Assembly (NCBI GenBank): GCA_947561715.1
Contig: OX387202.1
Span: 12,351,001-12,415,000, forward strand
Direction of reading: 5' to 3'
DNA from: Ascidia mentula
Lineage: Eukaryota; Chordata; Ascidiacea; Phlebobranchia; Ascidiidae
Length of the DNA: 64,000 bases
Shown here: positions 36,279-54,076 of the stretch, one piece after another
Layout: each line of letters begins with the position of its first letter
Position numbering within the stretch: position 1 is the stretch's first letter
Notes under the pieces: model-generated
The model's input: only the letters and a program-made list of their open reading frames with translations
The model's database searches: none
Told to the model about the DNA's origin: nothing
Translations under genes and position numbers: made by a program

Positions 36279-39200
36279 TCAAAAATCGCTGCGACATGTG
36301 GCATTTTTCAAATCTTCTTTTGGGATCCAATCCTCCTGCGGAAGTTGATCAAACATCCCCGCTGCTACGCTCTCAACATCCAGCATCACTCGGAGGAGGT
36401 TCCTCCCCGCAACATCCATTAGTTCCTCGTCTCCCCATCCTCTCCTCTGCAGCTCGTTAAAGATGTTGGGGTACTTAGATGTGTCATCCAATCCAATAGG
36501 CGTCCTGTGGGGTGTAATGTGGTTTATCAAAATGTAATTATTTAGTTGTACTTACACTTGGAAAGAGCAGTGTTAAAACCAATAACGTGTTTACTATGAG
36601 TGACAAGCAGCGATTATGAAATAAATGAACACAGCAGTGCTAAATTACTGTTGGTATTTGCTGGGTGTGATTGTAGCAGCATTGTAACTTGTATGATTAA
36701 TTTGCGCGAAGAAGTCCGTATGTCAAAGAATGCCGTTTGCATTATCTCCCCATCACGTCTTGCAGGGCTCCCACGACAGCAAAGAAAAGTCAAACTCGAG
36801 TAGAAACCGCTTTGACATTTCAATGCTTTGCAGTAAACGTTCAGAATGCGTTGCAAAAAAAGCAAGCTCTTTCAGAACGGTTGAGAATCAGAAAATCAAG
36901 TGGGAAACAATGATATTACTCCAAGCAAGACATAATGTTGATGCAAGTATGTAACCGATCAATATGTTGCAAATAATTGTATGTAAAACACCCGAACCAC
37001 TGGCTGTTTTGTGTAATTGTACATAGAAACGGACACACCCCGCTTAATCTGTGGCTTTGTTGCTATTCGTTGTAGTAACATGTTAAGCATGCTGTGGAAC
37101 AAATCACATAGAATATATACTCACAGTGGTATTGCGTCGAAATCCGAACCGAGACCCACGTACTGTGATCCAATTAGATCCCTGATGTATTCTATTTGAT
37201 CTGATACAGAATCGCAACAAGGACAATTCAGTAACCATCCAAGTCATCATTCAAATCAACGTTTATATTAAACTTACTTGCAACATCTCTCACTGATGCA
37301 GTTACGTTGCAAGTTAGATAGAGATTGTAGAAATCAATCATAATAACACCTCCATTTGCCGCCTGTAAATTTTTGTGATGTCATATTGCCAGCAGACAAT
37401 GGATGGCTATTATGAATACTATTGTTTTCAAACATTGTTTGGTTTGGTCTGACCTTTTGTAAGTGAATGTCAGGCTTACCAATGCATGTAGTACAGAATC
37501 AGGAACGTTCCGTTCGCGATTGCAAAGGCCCTGTGCGCAGCTGTGACTGAAAATCACTGGAGCTTGACTTGTTTCTATCACGTGGTTCATGGTTGCCTCA
37601 GAAACGTGCGAAATGTCCACCATCATACCGAGTCTGTTCATTTCAAGTACCAGTTTCTGTGACAGAATCAAGGTGTTTTTATTTCATGACATGATTCTCA
37701 AATTGCACTGATGATGGACGCAGTCGTGTTCGATACGTTTGCACATGATGTATACCAGTATAATAGCTTTGGCTTTCTTGTTTAAATTAATTAACTTCAA
37801 GTTTTTTTCCACCTATTCATGACATGACTCATTCAATTTTAAAGAAAGCAACATTGTGGGTAAACTACTGTATTGTAAAAAGTTTGGTTGTAACTTGTAA
37901 CAACATAAACCAAAAAAATCGTCGACGAAGTGCCCAATCGCTATGTCCTTAAATGCCAATATTTCATTGGTGATATTTTTGCATTAAAATTTTATAAGCC
38001 TAATTTTGGGAACTTACTTTTCCAAATTGTGTCAGGCCTTGGTTCGGGTAGCCAGAGTTGATGGCATCCGCCCTAAAAGCTTTGTTACTTGTTATAACGT
38101 TATGGCGGCACTAGTAAAATTGCAAATGCGGAATGTCTGTGGATAATTTGAATGTTTATTTCATTATCTTTTGTCATTACAATGTGCGTTTTTCTTTATA
38201 AGCAATTTATGTTTGCGCTGGTTTAGATAATGACGTCATAAACGGTTTAAAGAAGCTGTAGACATGCACTGCTCAAGTGTAACACACTGGCATTAAAGCC
38301 ATAACTCACCATGGGGTATTGCACGAATGTGTCAAGGTTATATACCGAACTCCAAGGTCATACATCATTCTCAACGCGCCCATTGAACTGTCAATGATGT
38401 GGCCGCTTTCCAGACCGTAAAGAGATGCAATTCTTCCGTTGTTGAATGCATTCTCGATTTCTAGAAGATAATGTATTGTGTTTAGGAAAACTTTTATTTC
38501 CAAAGTTGAAACATGCTGACTATTTTTCCATTAAATTTTATCTTCGCAAAAAATAGAATAATATTAAATCGAAAGGCTGTGTGCACAACTGAAAACCATA
38601 CACCAAAACGGTCCGGATATGCAAGATATGTGTTTTTCCAATATTACTTCAAAATATAAAGAAAGTTCTGTTTTTAAGGATAAATGGCTGCATGGGTGAT
38701 GGTTATATACCGGAAAAAATTACGTATGCAGTAACGCGGAATTACATACCGTCAGCGGTTCTTGCTTCTTGGAAGGCTTCTGAATACTTCTTGACCACTC
38801 GTTTCAAGAGATCAAGCTGCTCGAGCCCGAATCGTACCGCGTCTGCCCCTTGAGTTGAACATGGCGCGTAGCAAGACCAGAACTATGCAAAATATGCATG
38901 GCTGGTAGCTAACCGTTGTTATAGTTTAAATTAATATAAACCGCATTGTACCTGAGCTCCCATCTTGCCCTCTTGCATTCTGGGTATGTCCGTGTGCGAA
39001 ATGGTGAAGTTGTCTGCCAGGTTGTCGTACAAACTGAATGAAGACAAACGGTTCTTGAAGTTGAGTCGAATACTCCAAGCAAAGTCGTTGTGCCTGAAAC
39101 AACTCTCAATATTAAGTCTAATTTATGCCAACAAAATAGTAAAAACTGTATCGATGACGCCTGACTGTGTTGGTATGCCTGATTAACGTTCGATTATCTT

Positions 39201-39932: not shown

Positions 39933-40477
39933 AATGCAAAACAGCCATGTACTGTGACAGCTCCGATTGTTTGACGCACGTATGTGGGCATGCAGAGCAA
40001 ACCACTTATGAATTAACAAACATTAAACCATGCGCATAATGCGTAATTGAGTTGTTTGTCGTCGAATGTGCAAGTAATTGTTTGCTGTAGGTACTACATT
40101 GCATTGAGTGCCGCGCAATATCACATACAAACCGTTTCACCGCGAACTTTTCATGCCAAAATAACCGCCCGTAGTGCACTTTTTGCAGTTCGGAATTTGT
40201 CATGACCTTGCCAGCAGGCATTGCAAGCATACATTACCATCCTGACTCTACTTAGATTGGTGATTGCCTTTGTGGGTTCACGCAGCACACGCAGCAGGCA
40301 TGCCATTATAAATTCTGCTCTTCTGGCAAACTTAATTTTCGACGTTTCTGGACGTTTCGGCTGTTATGCCGGTAAAATAACGTTTGCCAGAAGAGCAGTA
40401 TATTCAGCAACAAAATATGCCTGACAGCGTCAGTAACAATTTATGCCATTATAAAGGCTGCTGTATTCGCTGTTGAA
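39933..40477. other. Intergenic region left of the tandem array
   Basis: This is the promoter region of dipeptidase B, followed by a 17-bp inverted repeat (40315-40398). No gene is supported. Confidence 0.5.
40315..40398. mobile_element. Inverted-repeat element with decayed hammerhead-like core
   Basis: Perfect 17-bp arms (CTGCTCTTCTGGCAAAC at 40315-40331 and its complement at 40382-40398) enclose about 50 bp. On the minus strand the order CTTCTGGC, a degenerate core, a short stem, CGAAACGTC and finally GCCAGAAG matches the element at 59381-59476. The CTGATGA core is not preserved. Confidence 0.55.
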
Positions 40478-41845: not shown

Positions 41846-41853
41846 TATAAATA
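41846..41853 (+). promoter_or_regulatory. TATA box of arginine-block peptide gene 1
   Basis: TATAAATA stands about 60 nt before the end of a non-coding first exon (ends 41912, donor GTAAGC). A CTGATTGGCTGAT stretch about 50 nt further upstream contains an inverted CCAAT box. The arrangement is the same in all three copies. Confidence 0.7.
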
Positions 41854-41985
41854 CGAAAACCATTGACGTACAAATTGCTCATTTTGTCATTTACACAAAA
41901 TCAGCATCCAAGGTAAGCAAAGTATGTTTATGTGGCGTAATCGATCGATTCGAGATTTTAACATGTATGTATTTTTTCATTGCAG

Positions 41986-42714
41986 ATGAACAAACTCATT
42001 CTCGCTGTCCTTCTTGTTGCGGTGCTCTGCGCCATGGTTGAAGAATCTGAAGGTTATTCTGTCTATTATCGTCGGCGACGTGTCTATTCTCGTCGACGTA
42101 GGATATCTCGCCGTCGACATTTTTACCGCCGGCGTTCCTTCCACCGCCGGCGTCGTTACGACAACAGTGAAGGTACATAATACGTTATGACTAAATATCC
42201 CAGCCCAAATTGGTCTCAAAACATAAGGCATTTTAAACGTATAAGCCAATATTAGCCTTGTTAAAAAAAAGGAATTGTTTATCCTTAAGCGAACCAGATC
42301 CTGAAAAAATAAATTAACTTGCTGTAATTCAAAAAAAGATTGCTTCAATAAGTTTGAGATTATCGCAAACCTCTGTTTTATGTTATTTCTATGCAAAAAG
42401 ATGACGAAATTAATTGCCACCAAAATTACCCTCTGATTTCCAAATTTAGTCAATCGGTATGTGAAGTATATTTCTATAAAAGTGCTCATTTTGAATATCT
42501 TTCAAAATTACTCTGCAGCTGCAGTAATTTTATAGAATGGGAGTTGCAGTACAACTATTAAAACACTACAGGAACAATATTATACAATGTCCATCGTATA
42601 CTAATCACTTTAAACTTTAAAATCCACTTTTTTTCAATTAGCTATTAACTTAAACACTTTTCAGACGTTGAAGAGGCAGAAATGCCACCAAGCGATATGG
42701 AGATGAATGAATAA
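41986..42714 (+). CDS. Secreted arginine-block peptide precursor, copy 1
   Basis: The ATG immediately follows the acceptor of a non-coding first exon. Coding exons are 41986-42172 and 42665-42714 (G/AC junction), 78 residues. Residues 1 to about 19-23 are a signal peptide (MNKLILAVLLVAVLCAMVEE). Residues about 24-62 consist of RRR or RRRR blocks separated by two or three mostly aromatic or small residues (VYS, IS, HFY, SFH). The last 16 residues, encoded by exon 2, are acidic (DVEEAEMPPSDMEMNE). There are no cysteines. AATAAA follows at 42804. I do not recognise a family. The signal, cationic core and anionic tail order is that of several ascidian antimicrobial peptide precursors; this function is inference only. 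A nucleic-acid or polyanion-binding role is also possible. Confidence 0.8.
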
Positions 42715-44905
42715 CTTGGATCAAGATTCATCACGATACCAACCACTAAACGGACCGTGTTTTTTTTTCTTTTTATTCGGCACCACTCAACTTAGGAGTC
42801 TACAATAAAACGTATTAGCATTGCAAATTATGTGTTACTTTTGTCAGTTCATAGTTAGTTTTGTCCAAATCCTCTGCTCTTAGGTAGTGATACAACGCAA
42901 TTAAAAAAGCATAACGGTAACACTAAAACTTTTATCTGCGTTAGGAAATTGTTTAGACGTACCATTTACCCACCAACAATATACTGTGAGTGACTGCATT
43001 AGGAGTCAACTTAGATCAGAAAGTTTGGATAGTTTATGGTTAGGTTTACCACAATACCAACTAATAGACGAAACGTGTTTTAATTTTAAATCCAGTACCA
43101 CTTACTGGTCAGTCTGAAATAAACAAACAAAAATTGTGTATTACTTAATCAGGTCATCCACTACATTAGGTTTGCTAAATACAAGCTCAGTAAAAACCGT
43201 ACCCAATCGAGTCCAGGATTCGGTTTTGTGCAGTATGGCACCAACAATTAAATGTGTATTTTGAGCAATTTCCATTGGGTTGGCACGCCTTTAACAAGAC
43301 ATACATAAAAACATGCCAGACGTTATGCCATTATATTTAATGTATACCATATTTATGAAGGCATGTGTATGTAAGATACGATCAATACATATATATAGCA
43401 GAAAATTTTTTATTAAATATCTGATCATGGCTAAATTCTGGGCTCAGTGTTACACCCAAACCAAGTACGGTTTCCCCAAACACTCCAATGTAACATCTGC
43501 TGGGAAACTGTTTCCATTGCCATGTAGATACAGGGCAGGAATGACATATGTTTTTCAACATGCATTTAGTGCACTGCAAACTATTTGTAACATGTCAGTT
43601 TATAAAAACAATTCCAAAACCAAAGCGCGAAGTGCCTGCTAGTCCACAGATGAAAAAACATTTAACCACGGTCTGCAACATGCAACGCGTTGCAGCAAAC
43701 GTGCCAATAAGCACAAAATGGTCGCTAGAATTGGCAATTAAAACACGACCGTAAACTATTTGTAATATCTAAAATACACTGTAGGTCTTGATCATCGATT
43801 CGTTATGGACGTTGGGTTGACGTAGTTGCGATTTGCGTTGGATCATAAATATGAATTCCACTAAACTGTTCAACAAGAGAGTTTGTGTGTAAAAATTTAA
43901 ATGTGGATCAAGCAGAGAGTTCTGTAGATGTTCAAAACTTTTGTAGCACTGAAACTTTAACAACAGAAACTCTCCATACGGTTGTCGTACGACAGCTTGG
44001 GTTACCGATCGTGTATGATTTCTATTAGACTACTTTTTTCTGCAGTCAAAAGTACTTTGATCAATTTTTCATTTAAAACACAATTAATCAAATTCCATTG
44101 CCGTCGTTTTGTAATGTCACTTTCTGGATTGCTTTTGTTACAGCAGGGTCCAAATTACAGCATAAGAATAATTATGTGAATTACATGGTAATTAACCATT
44201 ACTTATAAATACGAAACAAAATACATTGACGGACATAAAGGATTTCTCGTCAATGGGGATTTTTTTCCAAAATCCGACGCACGAAAAAATATGCACGTGT
44301 GTCCAAGTTTTTGGTTTTCAACGTACATGAGAGGGGTCAGTGTTGTGCCAGAGGCCGAGACACGTTATCACAAATTATCGAAACTCGCGCCTTTGGGTTT
44401 TTTCATGTCGGAAACCCCAAATTAAGTTTGACACAAGAGTTTAAATACAGAACCTCTAAGTCGTGGAAAACATTCCAATTTTACAATACAGATTGGTTGT
44501 ATAAAGACGATATCTAAACTTGATTATTGGCTGCATATACGCAAATGCGCGTATAACCAAATCACACCAGCAGTGTGCAGCTATTTACGGAATCATAGGC
44601 ATGTGAGAGCATATGTTTAGTGCAAAAATGGATGAATAATTGCAAAATTTCCGGGGCCAATGCCACACCCAAACATCTGCTCGGCTGGCAAAAAACTTGT
44701 TGCTAAAAGAGGAAAATTCAATCTCTGGTGGAAACGTCGACCACCAGCGCCTTAGGGTCCGAATGGCATATGTTTTTTGCATTCATTGCAGCAGTACAAA
44801 AAATGCATTTGTCAATGATTGGAACTCAAGTTAAATTTCCCGTCGCTGTTCAGAATGCAAAGTTCGAACTTTTCTGAATTCTATTGACAGCAGCATTGTG
44901 GTTGT

Positions 44906-45221
44906 CTGTCGATGTGGATCAAAGGAAACGTTCTGAGAACCGAGTTGGCGTTTGCGTTTCGATGGGTTTTGCTTTGATCAGCACGGCCGGGTGGCCACCT
45001 TTCGTCACATGCAGCTTGTCGCAACCCATCACCTCCCAGTGCGACTGGCTGCGATCCTACAACAGACGGTGATTCTCCGTGAGGAAATCACCTTTACATG
45101 GGCGCCTGACTCGATAACCTTTATGGTTTTATCGGTGCCCATGCCATTTCATTTCCTTTTATATTGTTCTTTGCGTAGTTGATTTTTTTCGCAAAATAAA
45201 CATGATTTGATTTGATTTGAA
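44906..45221 (+). mobile_element. 5'-truncated non-LTR retrotransposon fragment
   Basis: This segment is absent from the same place in units 1 and 3. It ends in a short pentamer tail (ATTTG repeated), following AATAAACATG. An unrelated 5' start and a simple-repeat 3' tail are what target-primed insertion of a truncated LINE (or a LINE-dependent SINE) leaves. No clear target duplication is seen. It lies about 0.3 kb upstream of peptide gene 2. Confidence 0.6.
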
Positions 45222-45403
45222 TAGAGCCCATATGGGAAAATGTCTGAATTTTTTGAATCTCGTTTCCGTTCTCTCAAGTTTGTCACACGGTGAAGCAACG
45301 CGTATGGGAAAAAGAACAGACTGTTTCAAAATTTTGGATTTCTGGAAGTTTCTGATTGGCTGATCGAGTTCTTTCCCATGCTATCGCCATATGTTTCAAA
45401 ATG

Positions 45404-45411
45404 TATAAATA
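45404..45411 (+). promoter_or_regulatory. TATA box of arginine-block peptide gene 2
   Basis: TATAAATA stands upstream of a non-coding exon ending at 45470, with the same surrounding sequence as in units 1 and 3. Confidence 0.7.
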
Positions 45412-45543
45412 CGAAAACCATTGACGTACAAATTGCTCATTTTGTCATTTACACAAAATCAGCATCCAAGGTAAGCAAAATATGTTTATGTGGCGTGATC
45501 GATCGATTCGAGGTTTTAACATGTATGTATTTTTTCATTGCAG

Positions 45544-46291
45544 ATGAACAAACTCATTCTCGCTGTCCTTCTTGTTGCGGTGCTCTGCGCCATGGTTGAA
45601 GAATCTGAAGGTTATTCTCGTCGGCGACGTGTCTATTATCGTCGACGTTGGTATTCTCGTCGACGTAGGACATCTCGCCGTCGACATTATTTCCGCCGGC
45701 GTCGTTACGACAACAGTGAAGGTAATACGTTATGACTGAAAATCCCATCCCAAATTGGTTTCAAAACATGAGGCAATTTACATGATTACTGGCAAAATTA
45801 AACGTATAAGCCAATGTTAGCCTTGTTTAAAAAAAATGAATTGTTTATCCTTAAGCGAAACAGATCCTGAAAAAATAAATTAACTTGCTGTAATTCAAAA
45901 AAAGATTGCTTTAATAAGTTTGAGATTATCGCAAACCCCTGTTTTATGTTATTTCTATGCAAAAAGATGACGAAATTAATTGCCACCAAAATTGCTTGTG
46001 ATTTCCAAATTTAGTCAATCGGTATGTGAAGTATATTTCTATGAAAATCCTCATTTTGAATATCTTTCGAAATTACTCTGCAGCTGCAGTAATTTTATAG
46101 AATGGGAGTTGTAGTACAACTATTAAAACACTACAGGAACAATATTATACAATGTCCATCGTATACTAATCACTTTAAACTTTAAAAGCCACTTTTTTTC
46201 AATTAGCCATTAACTTAAACACTTTTCAGACGTTGAAGAGGCAGAAATGCCACCAAGCGATATGGAGAATGATATGGAGATGAATGAATAA
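45544..46291 (+). CDS. Secreted arginine-block peptide precursor, copy 2 (divergent)
   Basis: Coding exons 45544-45721 and 46230-46291, 79 residues. The signal peptide is identical to copies 1 and 3. The core has a different set of spacers (VYY, WYS, TS, HYF) and lacks the SFH block. The acidic tail is four residues longer (an extra repeat of MEND type). Differences are concentrated in the core and tail rather than the signal peptide, as is common in precursors of secreted defence peptides. AATAAA is at 46382. Function is unknown; see copy 1. Confidence 0.8.
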
Positions 46292-48676
46292 CTTGGATCA
46301 AGATTCATCACGATACCAACCACTAAACGGACCGTGTTTTTTTCTTCTTTTAATTCGGCACCACTCAACTTAGGAGTCTACAATAAAACGTATTAGCATT
46401 GCAAATTATGTGTTACTTTTTTCAGTTCATAGTTAGTTTTGTCCAAATCCTCTGCTCTTAGGTAGTGATACAACGCAATTAAAAAAGCATAACGGTAACA
46501 CTAAAACTTTTATCTGCGTTAGGAAATTGTTTAGACGTACCATTTACCCACCAACAATATACTGTGAGTGACTGCATTAGAAGGTCAACTTAGATCAGAA
46601 AGTTTGGATAGTTTATGGTTAGGTTTACCACAATACCAACTAATAGACGAAACGTGTTTTAATTTTAAATCCAGTACCACTTAGTGGTCAGTCTGAAATA
46701 AACAAACAAAAATTGTGTATTACTTAATCAGGTCATCCACTACATTGGTTTGCTAAATACAAGCTCAGTAAAAACCGTACCCAATCGAGTCCAGGATTCG
46801 GTTTTGTGCAGTATGGCACCAACAATTAAATGTGTATTTTGAGCAATTTTTATTGGGTTGGCACACCTTTAACAAGACATACATAAAAACATGCCAGACG
46901 TTATGCCATTATATTTAATGTATACGATATTTATGAAGGCATGTGTATGTAAGATACGATCAATACATATATATAGCAGAAAAATTTTCATTAAATATCT
47001 GATCATGGCTAAATTCTGGGCTCAGTGTTACACCCAAACCAAGTACGGTTTCCCCAAACACTCCAATGTAACATCTGCTGGGAAACTGTTTCCATTGCCA
47101 TGTAGATACAGGGCAGGAATGACATATGTTTTTCAACATGCATTTAGTGCACTGCAAACTATTTGTAATATGTCAGTTTATAAAAACAATTCCAAAACCA
47201 AAGCGCGAAGTGCCTGCTAGTCCACAGATGAAAAAACATTTAACCACGGTCTGCAACATGCAACGCGTTGCAGCAAACGTGCCAAAAAGCACAAAATGGT
47301 CGCTAGAATTGGCAATTAAAACACGACCGTAAACTATTTGTAATATCTAAAATACACTGTAGGTCTTGATCATCGATTCGTTATGGACGTTGGGTTGACG
47401 CAGTTGCGATTTGCGTTGGATCATAAATATGAATTCCACTAAACTGTTCAACAAGAGAGTTTGTGTGTAAAAATTTAAATGTGGATCAAGCAGAGAGTTC
47501 TGTAGATGTTCAAAACTTTTATAGCACTTAAACTTTAACACAGAAACTCGCCATACGGTTGTCGTACGACAGCTTGGGTTACCGATCGTGTATGATTTCT
47601 ATTGGGCTACTTTAATCTGCAGTGAAAAATACTTTGATCAACTAATCATTTAAAACACAATTAATCAAATTCCATTGCCGTCGTTTTGTAATGACACTTT
47701 TTGGATCGCTTTTGTTACAGCAGGGTCCGAATTACGGCATAAGAATAATTATGTGAATTACATGGTAATTAACCATTACTAATAAATACGAAACAAAATA
47801 CATTGACGGACATAAAGGATTTCTCGTCAATGGGGATTTTTTTCCAAAATCCGACGCACGAAAAAATATGCACGTGTGTCCAAGTTTTTGGTTTTCAACA
47901 TACATGAGAGGGGTCAGAGTTGTGCCAGAGCCCGAGACACGTTATCACAAATCATCCAAACTCGCGCCTTTGGGTTTTTTCATGTCGGAAACCCCAAACT
48001 AAGTTTGACACAAGACTTTAAATACAGAACCTCTAAGTCGTGGAAAACATTCCAATTTTACAATACAGATTGTTTGTATAAAGACGATTTCCAAACTTGA
48101 TTATTAGCTGCATATACGCAAATGCGCGTATAACCAAATCATACCAGCAGTGTGCAGCTAGTTACGAAATCATATGTTGAGTAGGCATGTGAGAGCATAT
48201 GTTTAGTGGAAAAATGGATGAATAATTGCAAAATTTCCGGGGTCAATGCCACACCCAAACATCTGCTCGGCTGGCAAAAAACTTGTTGCTAAAAGGGGGA
48301 AATTCAATCTCTGGTGGAAACGTCGACCACCAGCGCATAGGGTCCGAATGGCATATGTTTTTGCATTCATTGCAGTAGAACAAAAAAACTGCGTTTGTCA
48401 ATGATTGGAACTCAAGTTAAATTTCCCGTCGCTGTTCAGAATGCAAAGTTCGAACTTTTCCGAATTGTATTGACAACAGCATTGTGGTTAGTGAATAGAG
48501 CCCATATTGAAAATGTCTAAATTTTCTGAATCTTGTTTCCGTTCTCTCAAGTTTGTCACACGGTGAAGCAACGCGTATGGGAAAAAGAACAGGCTGTTTC
48601 AAAAATTTGGATTTCTGGAAGTTTCTGATTGGCTGATCGAGTTCTCTCCCATGCTATCGCCATATGTTTCAAAATG

Positions 48677-48684
48677 TATAAATA
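48677..48684 (+). promoter_or_regulatory. TATA box of arginine-block peptide gene 3
   Basis: TATAAATA stands upstream of a non-coding exon ending at 48743, as in units 1 and 2. Confidence 0.7.
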
Positions 48685-48816
48685 CGAGAACCATTGACGT
48701 ACAAATTGCTCATTTTGTCATTTACACAAAATCAGCATCCAAGGTAAGCAAAGTATGTTTATGTGGCGTAATCGATCGATTCGAGATTTTAACATGTATG
48801 TATTTTTTCATTGCAG

Positions 48817-49545
48817 ATGAACAAACTCATTCTCGCTGTCCTTCTTGTTGCGGTGCTCTGCGCCATGGTTGAAGAATCTGAAGGTTATTCTGTCTATTAT
48901 CGTCGGCGACGTGTCTATTCTCGTCGACGTAGGATATCTCGCCGTCGACATTTTTACCGCCGGCGTTCCTTCCACCGCCGGCGTCGTTACGACAACAGTG
49001 AAGGTACATAATACGTTATGACTAAATATCCCAGCCCAAATTGGTCTCAAAACATAAGGCATTTTAAACGTATAAGCCAATATTAGCCTTGTTAAAAAAA
49101 AGGAATTGTTTATCCTTAAGCGAACCAGATCCTGAAAAAATAAATTAACTTGCTGTAATTCAAACAAAGATTGCTTCAATAAGTTTAAGATTATCGCAAA
49201 ACCCTATTTTATGTTATTTCTATACAAAAAGATGACGAAATTAATTGCCACCAAAATTACCTGTGATTTCCAAATTTAGTCAATCGGTATGTAAAGTATA
49301 TTTCTATAAAATTGCTCATTTTGAATATCTTTCAAAATTGCTCTGCAGCTGCAGTAATTTTATAGAATGGGAGTTGTAGTACAACTATTAAAACACTACA
49401 GGAACAATATTATACAATGTCCATCGTATACTAATCACTTTAAACTTCAAAAAGCCACTTTTTTTTAATTAGCCATTAACTTAAACACTTTTCAGACGTT
49501 GAAGAGGCAGAAATGCCACCAAGCGATATGGAGATGAATGAATAA
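48817..49545 (+). CDS. Secreted arginine-block peptide precursor, copy 3
   Basis: Coding exons 48817-49003 and 49496-49545, 78 residues. The predicted protein is identical to copy 1, although copy 2 lies between them. Signal peptide, arginine-block core and 16-residue acidic tail are as described for copy 1. AATAAA is at 49636. Confidence 0.8.
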
Positions 49546-51564: not shown

Positions 51565-53052
51565 CTAGGACCCCACATTCCATATTTCACAAGTAAAGTC
51601 TTCAAATCCACCAAACAAACTATCAGACTTAACATGGCTCATCGGAAACTCTTTGAACTCCTCAGAACAGGCATGGGCAAACATTTCATCTTGGTTCCTA
51701 TCGAGCAGCTCTCCGATGTCAGTTTCAAGTGTTCCAATGCTTTTGAACGATGCACACTTCACAACCTGTGGGCTGTAGTGTGATTTAAGGGTGTCCAATT
51801 CCCACAATGAACTGTCAATAGCTGCACACTTGGATGGGTCTGATGCATTTTCATCGAAAGGATCACTAAACTCCTCCTGGTTGTGATCTTTGCAATCAAC
51901 AAGATTCCTGATGCTAGGATGCCTTCGCACCAAGTTTAAGATGAGGGGCACCATGATACATATGCCATCAGGGGGTGCTGTTAGGCACAACCTTGACATT
52001 TTCTTGACAAACGCAGCAACAAGGTACGATGGAATATGTGTGGAGGAAAGGAATAGGTCCAAAAGGTGGAAAAAGCGGGCCTTATATTTGGCATCAAATA
52101 TTCTTGGATGCAACATGGCATAGACGTTTTTGTAAAACTCTGGATATTCCAAGTTGTGTTCATGCATCAGTACAAACAAACCATGAAGGCCCAACAGAGC
52201 CAAGCCACCACCTTTACTGTATGAACGCATCAGAAAATCTGCAAGTAACCGTGGTTTCGCAAAGTTTGGCACCAAACTTGTGTGGAATATGATGAGCACA
52301 TTTTTGTGAATGGAACCAGGTAGGGGCTGCTTCAAAAATTCCAGCCAGGCACCAGCGAACCTTTTTCTGTGGTGTGATAACAAAAATGCTCTTGAATTGG
52401 AAAATTTTTCTGAAGAGGTCTCTTTGTCCTGAAAAACATAGCTTGAATTCAAAACAGCCCCATTCTGTGGCATGTAAGTAACGAGTGTTTTCAGGAAGTC
52501 ATACACAATGGGCAACAGATCATCATTTTCTTTGAACATTCTATTCATCACTGTTGGCATAGCTTTTAACACGTAATACCGCATATCATCAAATTGTAAA
52601 AGCTCGCAAAGCTCTTGAAGCATTTCACCATTTTCTGAACTTAAAACAGTGATAAGCAATTGTTCAAACTCATTTTCTGGAAACACGAACTCTGTTGAGT
52701 TCTTGTTCATGCAGAAAGATTTCAACTGCAGCAACTTAAGGACAATTTCCTGTAACTGTGGATATCCAGTTGGCACCTCTAGCAACTTAAGGCAAGCAAC
52801 TAAACAGTCGTTGAACCTTTCCAACATCCAAGACTTAAAAATTTCATCACTTGTTTCAGCCTTCGAGTTTGTCGAGAAATCAGAATCCTCTAGATATTTT
52901 GTGAATATGTTCATACATCCAGTTGATGCTTCCAAGACAATTCGCTGGTTCGATTGCGTGGTGATTACATTTATGATGTCAACCAAGTTGTTAGCGTGTT
53001 CTCTGCTATGCAAAGCTGTCGCAACCAGCTTTTTCAAGTTTAACTTCGTCAT
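51565..53052 (-). CDS. NOC4L: Nucleolar complex protein 4 homologue
   Basis: A single uninterrupted frame of 495 residues; human NOC4L has 516. The C-terminal half has the CBF/Mak21-type helical-repeat region, with FHTSLVPNFAKPRLLADFLM, GGGLALLGLHGLFVLMHEHN, YPEFYKNVYAMLHP and the conserved end region DPFDENASDPSKCAAIDSSL then LWELDTLKSHYSP. Known role: with NOP14, NOC4 acts in 40S ribosomal subunit maturation and export from the nucleolus. The gene has no introns, unlike every other conserved gene in the window. It diverges from TPD52. An E-box CACGTG lies about 200 bp upstream at 53248-53253. Confidence 0.93.
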   Translation of the reverse strand: MTKLNLKKLVATALHSREHANNLVDIINVITTQSNQRIVLEASTGCMNIFTKYLEDSDFSTNSKAETSDEIFKSWMLERFNDCLVACLKLLEVPTGYPQLQEIVLKLLQLKSFCMNKNSTEFVFPENEFEQLLITVLSSENGEMLQELCELLQFDDMRYYVLKAMPTVMNRMFKENDDLLPIVYDFLKTLVTYMPQNGAVLNSSYVFQDKETSSEKFSNSRAFLLSHHRKRFAGAWLEFLKQPLPGSIHKNVLIIFHTSLVPNFAKPRLLADFLMRSYSKGGGLALLGLHGLFVLMHEHNLEYPEFYKNVYAMLHPRIFDAKYKARFFHLLDLFLSSTHIPSYLVAAFVKKMSRLCLTAPPDGICIMVPLILNLVRRHPSIRNLVDCKDHNQEEFSDPFDENASDPSKCAAIDSSLWELDTLKSHYSPQVVKCASFKSIGTLETDIGELLDRNQDEMFAHACSEEFKEFPMSHVKSDSLFGGFEDFTCEIWNVGS

Positions 53053-54076
53053 TATTGTTTAAGATAGGTTACGTGCTTTTTATCAGCAACGACATATTTT
53101 CTGCAAAATAGCGGTTGTTAGGTAAGATAAGAAATGTTCAAATTACTCTCAATGAAGTAAATATTCTAACATAAACAAACATACCGCTTACTGTTTTGCA
53201 AAACGTAAACATTCAACAGTGAAAACTTCATAGATAAACACGATCATCACGTGGCTTATAATCCAGATCACGACAGACGCAATTAAAATAAATGATACTG
53301 TATTTCTAGCTTTTATCGGGGTATTTCTGAAAACAATTTGTTTTTAACATTTTTACAAATTGTTATTCATATGATTTTTTTGTAAAAAAATGTTTTGGGC
53401 CTATAGCAAGAATACTAGTTACATCGAAATTTTTAATGGTAACAAGCTTGGTGATCAAAGTGGTGGTTAGCAAATACACGTAATTCAACATCTTGTGATT
53501 AATACTCAGCACTCGAATGCTGTAAGTAAAAGTAAAATAACAAATCGTGAACGTTATTTATAATTAGTCACGTGATTGTCACGTGTTACGTGATCCTGAG
53601 GTAATTTGATTTCTGACGTCATCCTGTCAATTTTACGAAAAGATAGTTTTTCTATTGTTCACTTTATTTTGTTGTAGTACAATCGTGTTTGGTGTATAAT
53701 ACTGCTTCATGTCAACAAAATAGCCGACAGTTTGCACATCGTGTTGTGGTTGGTAATCACACGTATACGCAACAACACGCATCGTCGATATTTCCGTCTC
53801 AAGAGATTTCAAAATGTAGGGTTTGAGTTGCGCGGAAGATTACGATGTTGGGAAAGTGAAATTTAAGACCGTTCATTGTCTCATAGTATACTGTGACCGA
53901 AAGTATTTTGTTTTGTTACACATCACGTAACGTATTTATACAATTCTTGTGCGATTTTTTTTAGATTGTGCTGTGCACTTAATCACGTAGCCAAGAAAGT
54001 TTTGTGGAAGAAAAAGCTATCAAAGAAACAGTTTGCGGGGAAACTTGTCGAAGAAAGAAAGAACACTAAAAAAACA
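53053..54076. promoter_or_regulatory. Probable bidirectional promoter of NOC4L and TPD52 with CACGTG cluster
   Basis: The 1-kb gap between the two divergent genes contains E-boxes CACGTG at 53248-53253, 53569-53574 and 53580-53585, followed by TACGTGA at 53587-53593. MYC/MAX, USF and MITF/TFE factors bind this palindrome. The TPD52 first exon, mostly untranslated, ends at 54080; its transcription start is not visible from sequence. Confidence 0.5.

Follow-up and report, generated by a model that had tools for sequence, protein, structure and literature searches.

Three tandem genes on chromosome 6 of Ascidia mentula

We analysed a window of 64,000 nt from chromosome 6 of the phlebobranch ascidian Ascidia mentula (assembly kaAscMent1.1). 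The window contains a tandem array of three repeat units, each carrying one small gene (A, B and C) for a predicted secreted precursor with a signal peptide, a core built of Arg blocks and an acidic tail. We propose that the array probably belongs to a large A. mentula gene family encoding precursors of secreted cationic antimicrobial peptides, which would be stored and then freed by cleavage before a conserved Asp.

The repeat units are about 3.2 to 3.6 kb long. Many 300-nt blocks are 95 to 99% identical between units (blocks interrupted by indels score lower), and about 4% of the aligned non-coding sites differ. The common promoter proposed in a first-pass annotation of this DNA was borne out, with a 200-nt promoter stretch showing 96 to 97.5% identity between the three genes. 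Each unit follows the same predicted gene plan: a TATA box, a short non-coding exon 1 ending at GTAAGC, an intron 1 of 73 nt with the ATG directly after it, an exon 2 for the signal peptide and core, a phase-1 intron 2 of 492 to 508 nt, and an exon 3 for the acidic tail. The spliced reading of the sequence gives GT..AG junctions in all three genes. In window coordinates, the array and its parts are:

40476 to at least 50540, + strand: tandem array of three repeat units with one gene each (starting at 40476 for unit A, 43717 for B and 47295 for C); the 3' limit was traced only as far as 50540
41846 to 41852, + strand: TATA box (TATAAAT) of gene A, lying 140 nt 5' of the ATG, from sequence
41876 to 41912, + strand: gene A exon 1, non-coding, predicted, up to the donor GTAAGC; 5' end placed from the TATA box
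41913 to 41985, + strand: gene A intron 1, predicted from sequence, 73 nt, CAG directly 5' of the ATG
41986 to 42172, + strand: gene A exon 2, with signal peptide, Arg-block core and DNSE (spliced reading)
42665 to 42714, + strand: coding part of gene A exon 3, for the acidic tail plus stop (spliced reading)
42804 to 42809, + strand: AATAAA 3' of gene A (by eye)
45404 to 45410, + strand: TATA box of gene B, from sequence
45471 to 45543, + strand: gene B intron 1, predicted from sequence
45544 to 45721, + strand: gene B exon 2, with signal peptide and a core unlike that of A and C, containing W (spliced reading)
46230 to 46291, + strand: coding part of gene B exon 3, with stop; its acidic tail is longer by four residues (spliced reading)
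48677 to 48683, + strand: TATA box of gene C, with the 140-nt spacing of gene A, read from sequence
48744 to 48816, + strand: gene C intron 1, predicted from sequence
48817 to 49003, + strand: gene C exon 2, protein identical to A (spliced reading)
49496 to 49545, + strand: coding part of gene C exon 3, for the acidic tail plus stop (spliced reading)

Copy B alone carries an insertion of 312 nt (window 44905-45216) with a (TTTGA)n-like end. The insertion is present in high copy in the genome (40 places scored, with 95 to 100% identity, out of 1141 first-look candidates). It is probably a short interspersed element (SINE)-like element that inserted after the duplications.

Predicted precursor proteins

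The predicted precursors of genes A and C are identical (78 aa), and that of gene B has 79 aa with a different core. As annotated previously, the three signal peptides are the same, without a single difference across 69 nt. The leader is hydrophobic and 23 residues long, with Ser and Gly at positions -3 and -1 of a SEG/Y site recognised by eye. The precursors had also been described as cysteine-free. This has to be corrected: there is one Cys in the signal peptide, and it is the core and the tail that have none.

The annotated build of RRR and RRRR blocks with short spacers was found in all three cores, where the spacers are two to three residues long (VYS, IS, HFY, SFH, VYY, WYS, TS and HYF). 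These cores carry a charge of +18 across the 32 to 35 residues up to the first Asp. An acidic tail on its own exon, also claimed earlier, agrees with the phase-1 intron and its junctions; the tails of A and C (DVEEAEMPPSDMEMNE) have a net charge of -7, and that of B, longer by four residues, -9. All three genes share YDNSE at the boundary of core and tail. There is no Pro in the window cores and no KR before the tail. Searches against Pfam (seven precursors), NCBIfam (three) and PDB (one) returned nothing above cut-off.

The array belongs to a large family in the A. mentula genome

We searched 195.8 Mb of the genome in 79 sequences (the published assembly is given as 197.0 Mb in 95 scaffolds, PMC11109543) with seven family proteins. 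At least 74 places were found at E ≤ 1 and at least 51 at E ≤ 1e-3, both counts being lower bounds. The three-gene array reported in the first-pass annotation is real, but sequence similarity places its genes in a genome-wide family of which they form a small part. Most places at E ≤ 1e-3 (43/51) are grouped into clusters of two to ten, in which adjacent places are separated by less than 20 kb. The protein B query found 31 places at E ≤ 1 in the forward direction and none when reversed (one Gly longer than the forward query), an empty answer that proves little on its own.

The fetched loci gave 42 distinct open reading frames (ORFs) that have a leader starting with M[NK][KGR] and at least six Arg, a filter that left out Arg-poor or truncated relatives among these loci. 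One ORF was a longer start of another (L012), leaving 41 members. Their distinct exon-2 frames comprise seven of the window type (alpha, leader ...EESEG), 15 of a beta type (leader ...TVSEG/A, cores such as WLWARRRRYYARRRRYYARRRRY), 17 of a gamma type (leaders such as ...LLASDSAES, cores mostly of Trp and Arg) and two others. The median core length is about 26 residues, with a median aromatic share of 25%. Mixed codons spell the Arg blocks, of which only 1/99 uses a single codon type, so the blocks are not simple DNA repeats.

The gene plan recurs across the family. An AG stands directly 5' of the ATG in 25/41 members, three bases before it in 15 and one base before it in one. The non-coding first exon of the earlier annotation remains a prediction, but the TATA/GTAAG/ATG layout with fixed spacing on which it rests was found in 23/41 members (beta 15/15, alpha 3/7, gamma 5/17) and in 0/1558 overlapping control windows. 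An acidic phase-1 exon lies within 900 nt downstream in 28/41 members, compared with 0/41 on the reverse strand and 7/410 in shuffles. Over these 28 gene models the mean charge is +12 for the core and -9 for the tail, and the two are weakly correlated (Spearman 0.39, p 0.04, n = 28, the members not being independent). In 36/41 frames the core is followed by Asp as the first acidic residue (in two of them by intron read-through), in one by Glu, and in four no acidic residue is in frame. Gly precedes this Asp at the end of 15/17 gamma cores, so that amidation of these peptides may be possible.

Several places differ from the common form. In four alpha-type members on chromosome 2 (L004, L005, L006 and L008, at 7.20 and 7.57 Mb), a single Cys sits at either end of the Arg-block core, for example NWCARRRRRRHVYRRRRHVYRRRRRCVRG, which suggests a disulphide-closed version. 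In four other places (L036, L035, L048 and L084), in-frame stops interrupt the match, which fits a gene family evolving by birth and death. Weaker clusters, mostly with E 0.01 to 0.7, lie on C73 (chromosome 9) at 10.93-10.94 and 12.78-12.81 Mb and on C67 at 7.86-7.88 and 8.23 Mb, the two places at 8.23 Mb scoring better than the other weak clusters. They may represent more diverged subfamilies.

A conserved leader and a fast-changing core

Pooled ratios of nonsynonymous to synonymous substitution (dN/dS) for the signal peptide were 0.22 in alpha, 0.07 in beta and 0.12 in gamma; the leader is under purifying selection. Between genes A and B, the leader, the end of exon 2 and the tail have 0 substitutions in 132 sites, apart from a 12-nt insertion in the tail of B, while the core shows a difference of 8% and a further 21 gap columns, and the non-coding sequence differs by 4%. 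The core changes fast between paralogues, and its charge and aromaticity are kept. Genes A and C share an identical tract of 476 nt (41858-42333 and the matching part of unit C), and their non-coding sequence differs by 4% overall. Because the tract spans the intron, we read the A/C identity as gene conversion or recent copying, not as selection on the core.

These observations bear on two other explanations of the Arg-rich core. The Arg blocks taken alone resemble those of protamines. A protamine-like or other nuclear Arg-rich protein is nevertheless extremely improbable; the conserved signal peptide under purifying selection largely refutes it, the acidic tail exon does not fit it, and no protamine model appeared among the Pfam matches at E ≤ 1 of seven precursors. 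A signalling or neuropeptide-type haemocyte peptide that does not kill directly would share the richness in basic residues, and Ciona haemocytes do produce peptides that are not antimicrobial, such as CiEMa, processed at Trp or Asp (PMC10888236). We consider this explanation improbable as well, as no conserved receptor-type motif was seen by eye and the core varies quickly between paralogues while keeping charge and aromaticity.

Likely relatives in Ciona and other comparable systems

The first-pass annotation regarded the family as undescribed and recognised no family for the core. This does not hold, since two Ciona genes, KH.C7.94 and KH.C1.640, share the design and their synthetic cores were antimicrobial (PMC7387483, a study listing 22 Ciona candidates). 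KH.C7.94 (KY21.Chr7.694), an uncharacterized LCAMP candidate in that study, has the same design as the Ascidia array: FSRRRFDFSRRRIYVARRRSLAFAHRRRFGDTA, RRR blocks with aromatic/Ala spacers, then an acidic tail ending in DQADDELMQMAE. Its synthetic core showed a minimal inhibitory concentration of 6.25 uM for E. coli, S. aureus and yeast, and the authors rate it among the peptides low in salt resistance (PMC7387483). KH.C1.640 shares an RRRRYDQQ junction with the beta subfamily and has an acidic tail with EEDE; its core is shorter and richer in Trp than the Ascidia cores, with fewer blocks. Against E. coli and S. aureus the synthetic core acted at less than 3.125 uM, it was active in up to 500 mM NaCl, and the gene is induced by lipopolysaccharide in haemocytes (PMC7387483).

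We aligned the Ciona precursors with Ascidia members whose tails were spliced from DNA (10 pairs, 3000 shuffles each that preserve the R blocks, uncorrected). For KH.C7.94 and beta members, the score was reached by 0/3000 shuffles with L061 (score 88), 14 with L025 and 62 with L017, so that homology of KH.C7.94 with the beta subfamily is supported at the sequence level. For KH.C1.640 the numbers were 25/3000 with L017, 45 with L025, 97 with window B, 177 with L061 and 457 with window A, giving moderate support for putative homology with the beta subfamily. A search of the whole Ascidia genome with the core plus tail of KH.C1.640 gave one chance-like match at E 0.028, which contains two stops. 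The lack of a better match does not speak for absence, because the Ascidia relatives have an intron at the boundary of core and tail. The Ciona "novel LCAMP" leader consensus (MNKSALLXLLXXGLXVLXEXXXA) was matched by the 41 leaders at a median of 6/15 positions, compared with 5.7 after shuffling. The window leaders matched it at 8/15, equalled by 2.8 to 4.2% of 500 shuffles (uncorrected).

The general layout that had been likened to ascidian defence peptides, a signal peptide followed by a cationic core and an anionic tail, is indeed found in the A. mentula genes. Styelins, clavanins and Ci-MAM/Ci-PAP are ascidian secreted precursors that likewise join a cationic core to an anionic C-terminal part. 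Their cores are helical or of a Lys/Phe/His type, not repeated Arg blocks. We aligned 54 pairs, with 300 shuffles per pair and without correction. Ci-MAM-D carries an RRRRR block and reached nominal p values of 0.010 with window A and 0.030 with window B; for Ci-PAP-A and the genes of the window the alignments gave no support (p at least 0.18).

The plan predicted here for the Ascidia genes was also described for the myticalins of the mollusc Mytilus: an exon for the 5' untranslated region, an intron right before the ATG, signal peptide and core on exon 2, a phase-1 intron and an anionic exon 3 (PMC5577615). Alpha leaders agree with the myticalin leader consensus at 7 to 8 of 18 positions, compared with about three after shuffling (reached by at most 0.6% of 500 shuffles). 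Myticalins differ in their Pro/Arg/Tyr PRY repeats, a KR cleavage site and a tail of 35 to 75 aa (PMC5577615). The likeness may well reflect either convergence or a very old scaffold.

Antimicrobial peptide precursors as the preferred interpretation

According to the mechanism we propose, the pre-pro-peptide would enter the secretory pathway, and the acidic tail would partly neutralise the Arg/aromatic core during storage. A protease would then cut before the conserved Asp (...RRRRY/DNSE), as reported for styelins and clavanins, which are cut before D or DD (PMC7387483); processing at Trp or Asp is also known from a Ciona haemocyte peptide (PMC10888236). The cleavage would free a peptide of 32 to 35 residues composed of Arg blocks and aromatic spacers, predicted to be YSVYY...RRRRY in A and C (35 residues) and YSRRRR...RRRRY in B (32 residues). 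The freed peptide may bind negatively charged microbial envelopes or polyanions and disrupt them. The sequence, read through predicted gene models, shows the gene anatomy, a constrained leader and a variable core, an array expanded in tandem, the distribution of charge and an Asp at the boundary. Expression in haemocytes, cleavage and activity would follow by analogy, and killing at the envelope is proposed for the Ascidia peptides because of what is known of their relatives. For the window genes themselves, too, a defence role is inferred.

A number of observations weigh against this interpretation. Within the family, the strict promoter layout is absent in 18/41 members, and no acidic exon was found downstream in 13/41. 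Furin-type RX[KR]R sites occur in 35/41 cores, with a median of three per core, so either the core avoids furin or furin cuts it. No exact NF-kB-type site was found in the array, and the three matches in the window are no excess over the 2.07 expected. KH.C7.94 is also without a predicted site of this type, its peptide was negative against P. aeruginosa (PMC7387483) and it was unresponsive to CiEMa (PMC10888236). In the alignments, KH.C7.94 matched the window genes no better than R-block shuffles did (355/3000 reached the score with B and 1970/3000 with A); the window genes are tied to it through their paralogues, because they have the gene plan and leader in common with beta. Activity against E. 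coli was weak or absent in four low-scoring Ciona segments, of which KH.C1.365, KH.L63.9 and KH.S1007.2 contain Arg blocks (PMC7387483). On a rough aggregation score (an approximate AGGRESCAN scale, off by 5 to 19 units on four published values; the class criterion is an amphipathic alpha-helical core scoring above -30), the window peptides (A/C -34, B -47) lie between the active KH.C7.94 (-30) and the inactive KH.S1007.2 (-53). The inactive segments KH.C1.365 (-27) and KH.S930.2 (-28) show that this score separates active from inactive peptides poorly.

A possible link between Tyr-rich cores and the oxidised peptides of ascidian blood cells

Morulin Pm and the tunichromes are blood-cell peptides of Ascidiidae derived from Tyr and Trp. 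Tunichromes of Phallusia and Ascidia consist of three Tyr-derived residues, and morulin Pm of Phallusia contains trihydroxyphenylalanine (TOPA) and 6-bromotryptophan (PMC3039461). Against this background, the precursors could be polyproteins of short aromatic peptides, in which RRR(R) blocks serve as processing sites and trimming by furin-like enzymes and carboxypeptidases frees Tyr/Trp oligopeptides that are oxidised to dihydroxyphenylalanine (DOPA) or TOPA, as in tunichromes or morulin. The abundant furin-type sites would suit such processing, furin is reported in the morula-cell granules of Botryllus (PMC9966394), and Tyr predominates in the beta spacers (YYA 21 times and YYYA six times among the 66 spacers of all 41 members). 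An exact YYY occurs in only one of these spacers. Tunichromes are tri- to pentapeptides, which the mixed spacers of the window do not match, and no Tyr-Tyr-Tyr or Gly/Leu-Tyr-Tyr unit bounded by cleavage sites was found in the window. The gamma cores are irregular, with RR or RRR and Trp, the Cys pair around the alpha cores of chromosome 2 makes most sense for an intact peptide, and the whole R-block peptide from Ciona was active. We therefore think it quite unlikely that the cores are cut into such units.

A cationic adhesive or tunic cross-linker modified to DOPA or TOPA would make another use of the same residues, with the Arg blocks binding sulphated or acidic polysaccharides and the oxidised Tyr cross-linking wounds or the tunic. 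Arg and aromatic residues do dominate the cores, and ascidian DOPA peptides with proposed cross-linking roles are known (PMC3039461). The cores are short for structural proteins, and a conserved acidic pro-piece with a highly diversified core fits defence peptides better, which makes this role unlikely. There is a similarly small chance that the alpha, beta and gamma arrays together encode ribosomally made precursors of the oxidised peptides found in the blood cells of Ascidiidae, with Tyr and Trp converted to DOPA, TOPA and bromo-Trp in the manner of morulin Pm and with cleavage at RRRR in beta yielding YY(Y) units that mature into tunichromes. No precursor gene for tunichromes was reported in the passages of open literature consulted, and the Tyr-rich beta subfamily offers a concrete candidate for the origin of ascidian DOPA/TOPA peptides.

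As antimicrobial peptide precursors, the Ascidia genes are an addition to a known peptide type, because their Ciona relatives have already been synthesised and tested. In the titles and abstract openings found in the open literature, an Ascidia gene family of this kind was not named. R-block peptides found singly in Ciona are now linked to a family with a common gene plan. Our results indicate that the Ascidia genome carries, at about 50 places, a repertoire of the defence-peptide type in which leaders are conserved, the tail exons are acidic and the Arg/Tyr/Trp core changes fast. We regard the unusual size and diversity of the family as the most interesting side of the finding.

Neighbouring genes

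Two coding regions flank the array, both on the - strand:

37381 to 37683, - strand: membrane dipeptidase exon (Pfam M19, E 3e-24)
51565 to 53058, - strand: CBF/Mak21 family protein (E 5e-47)

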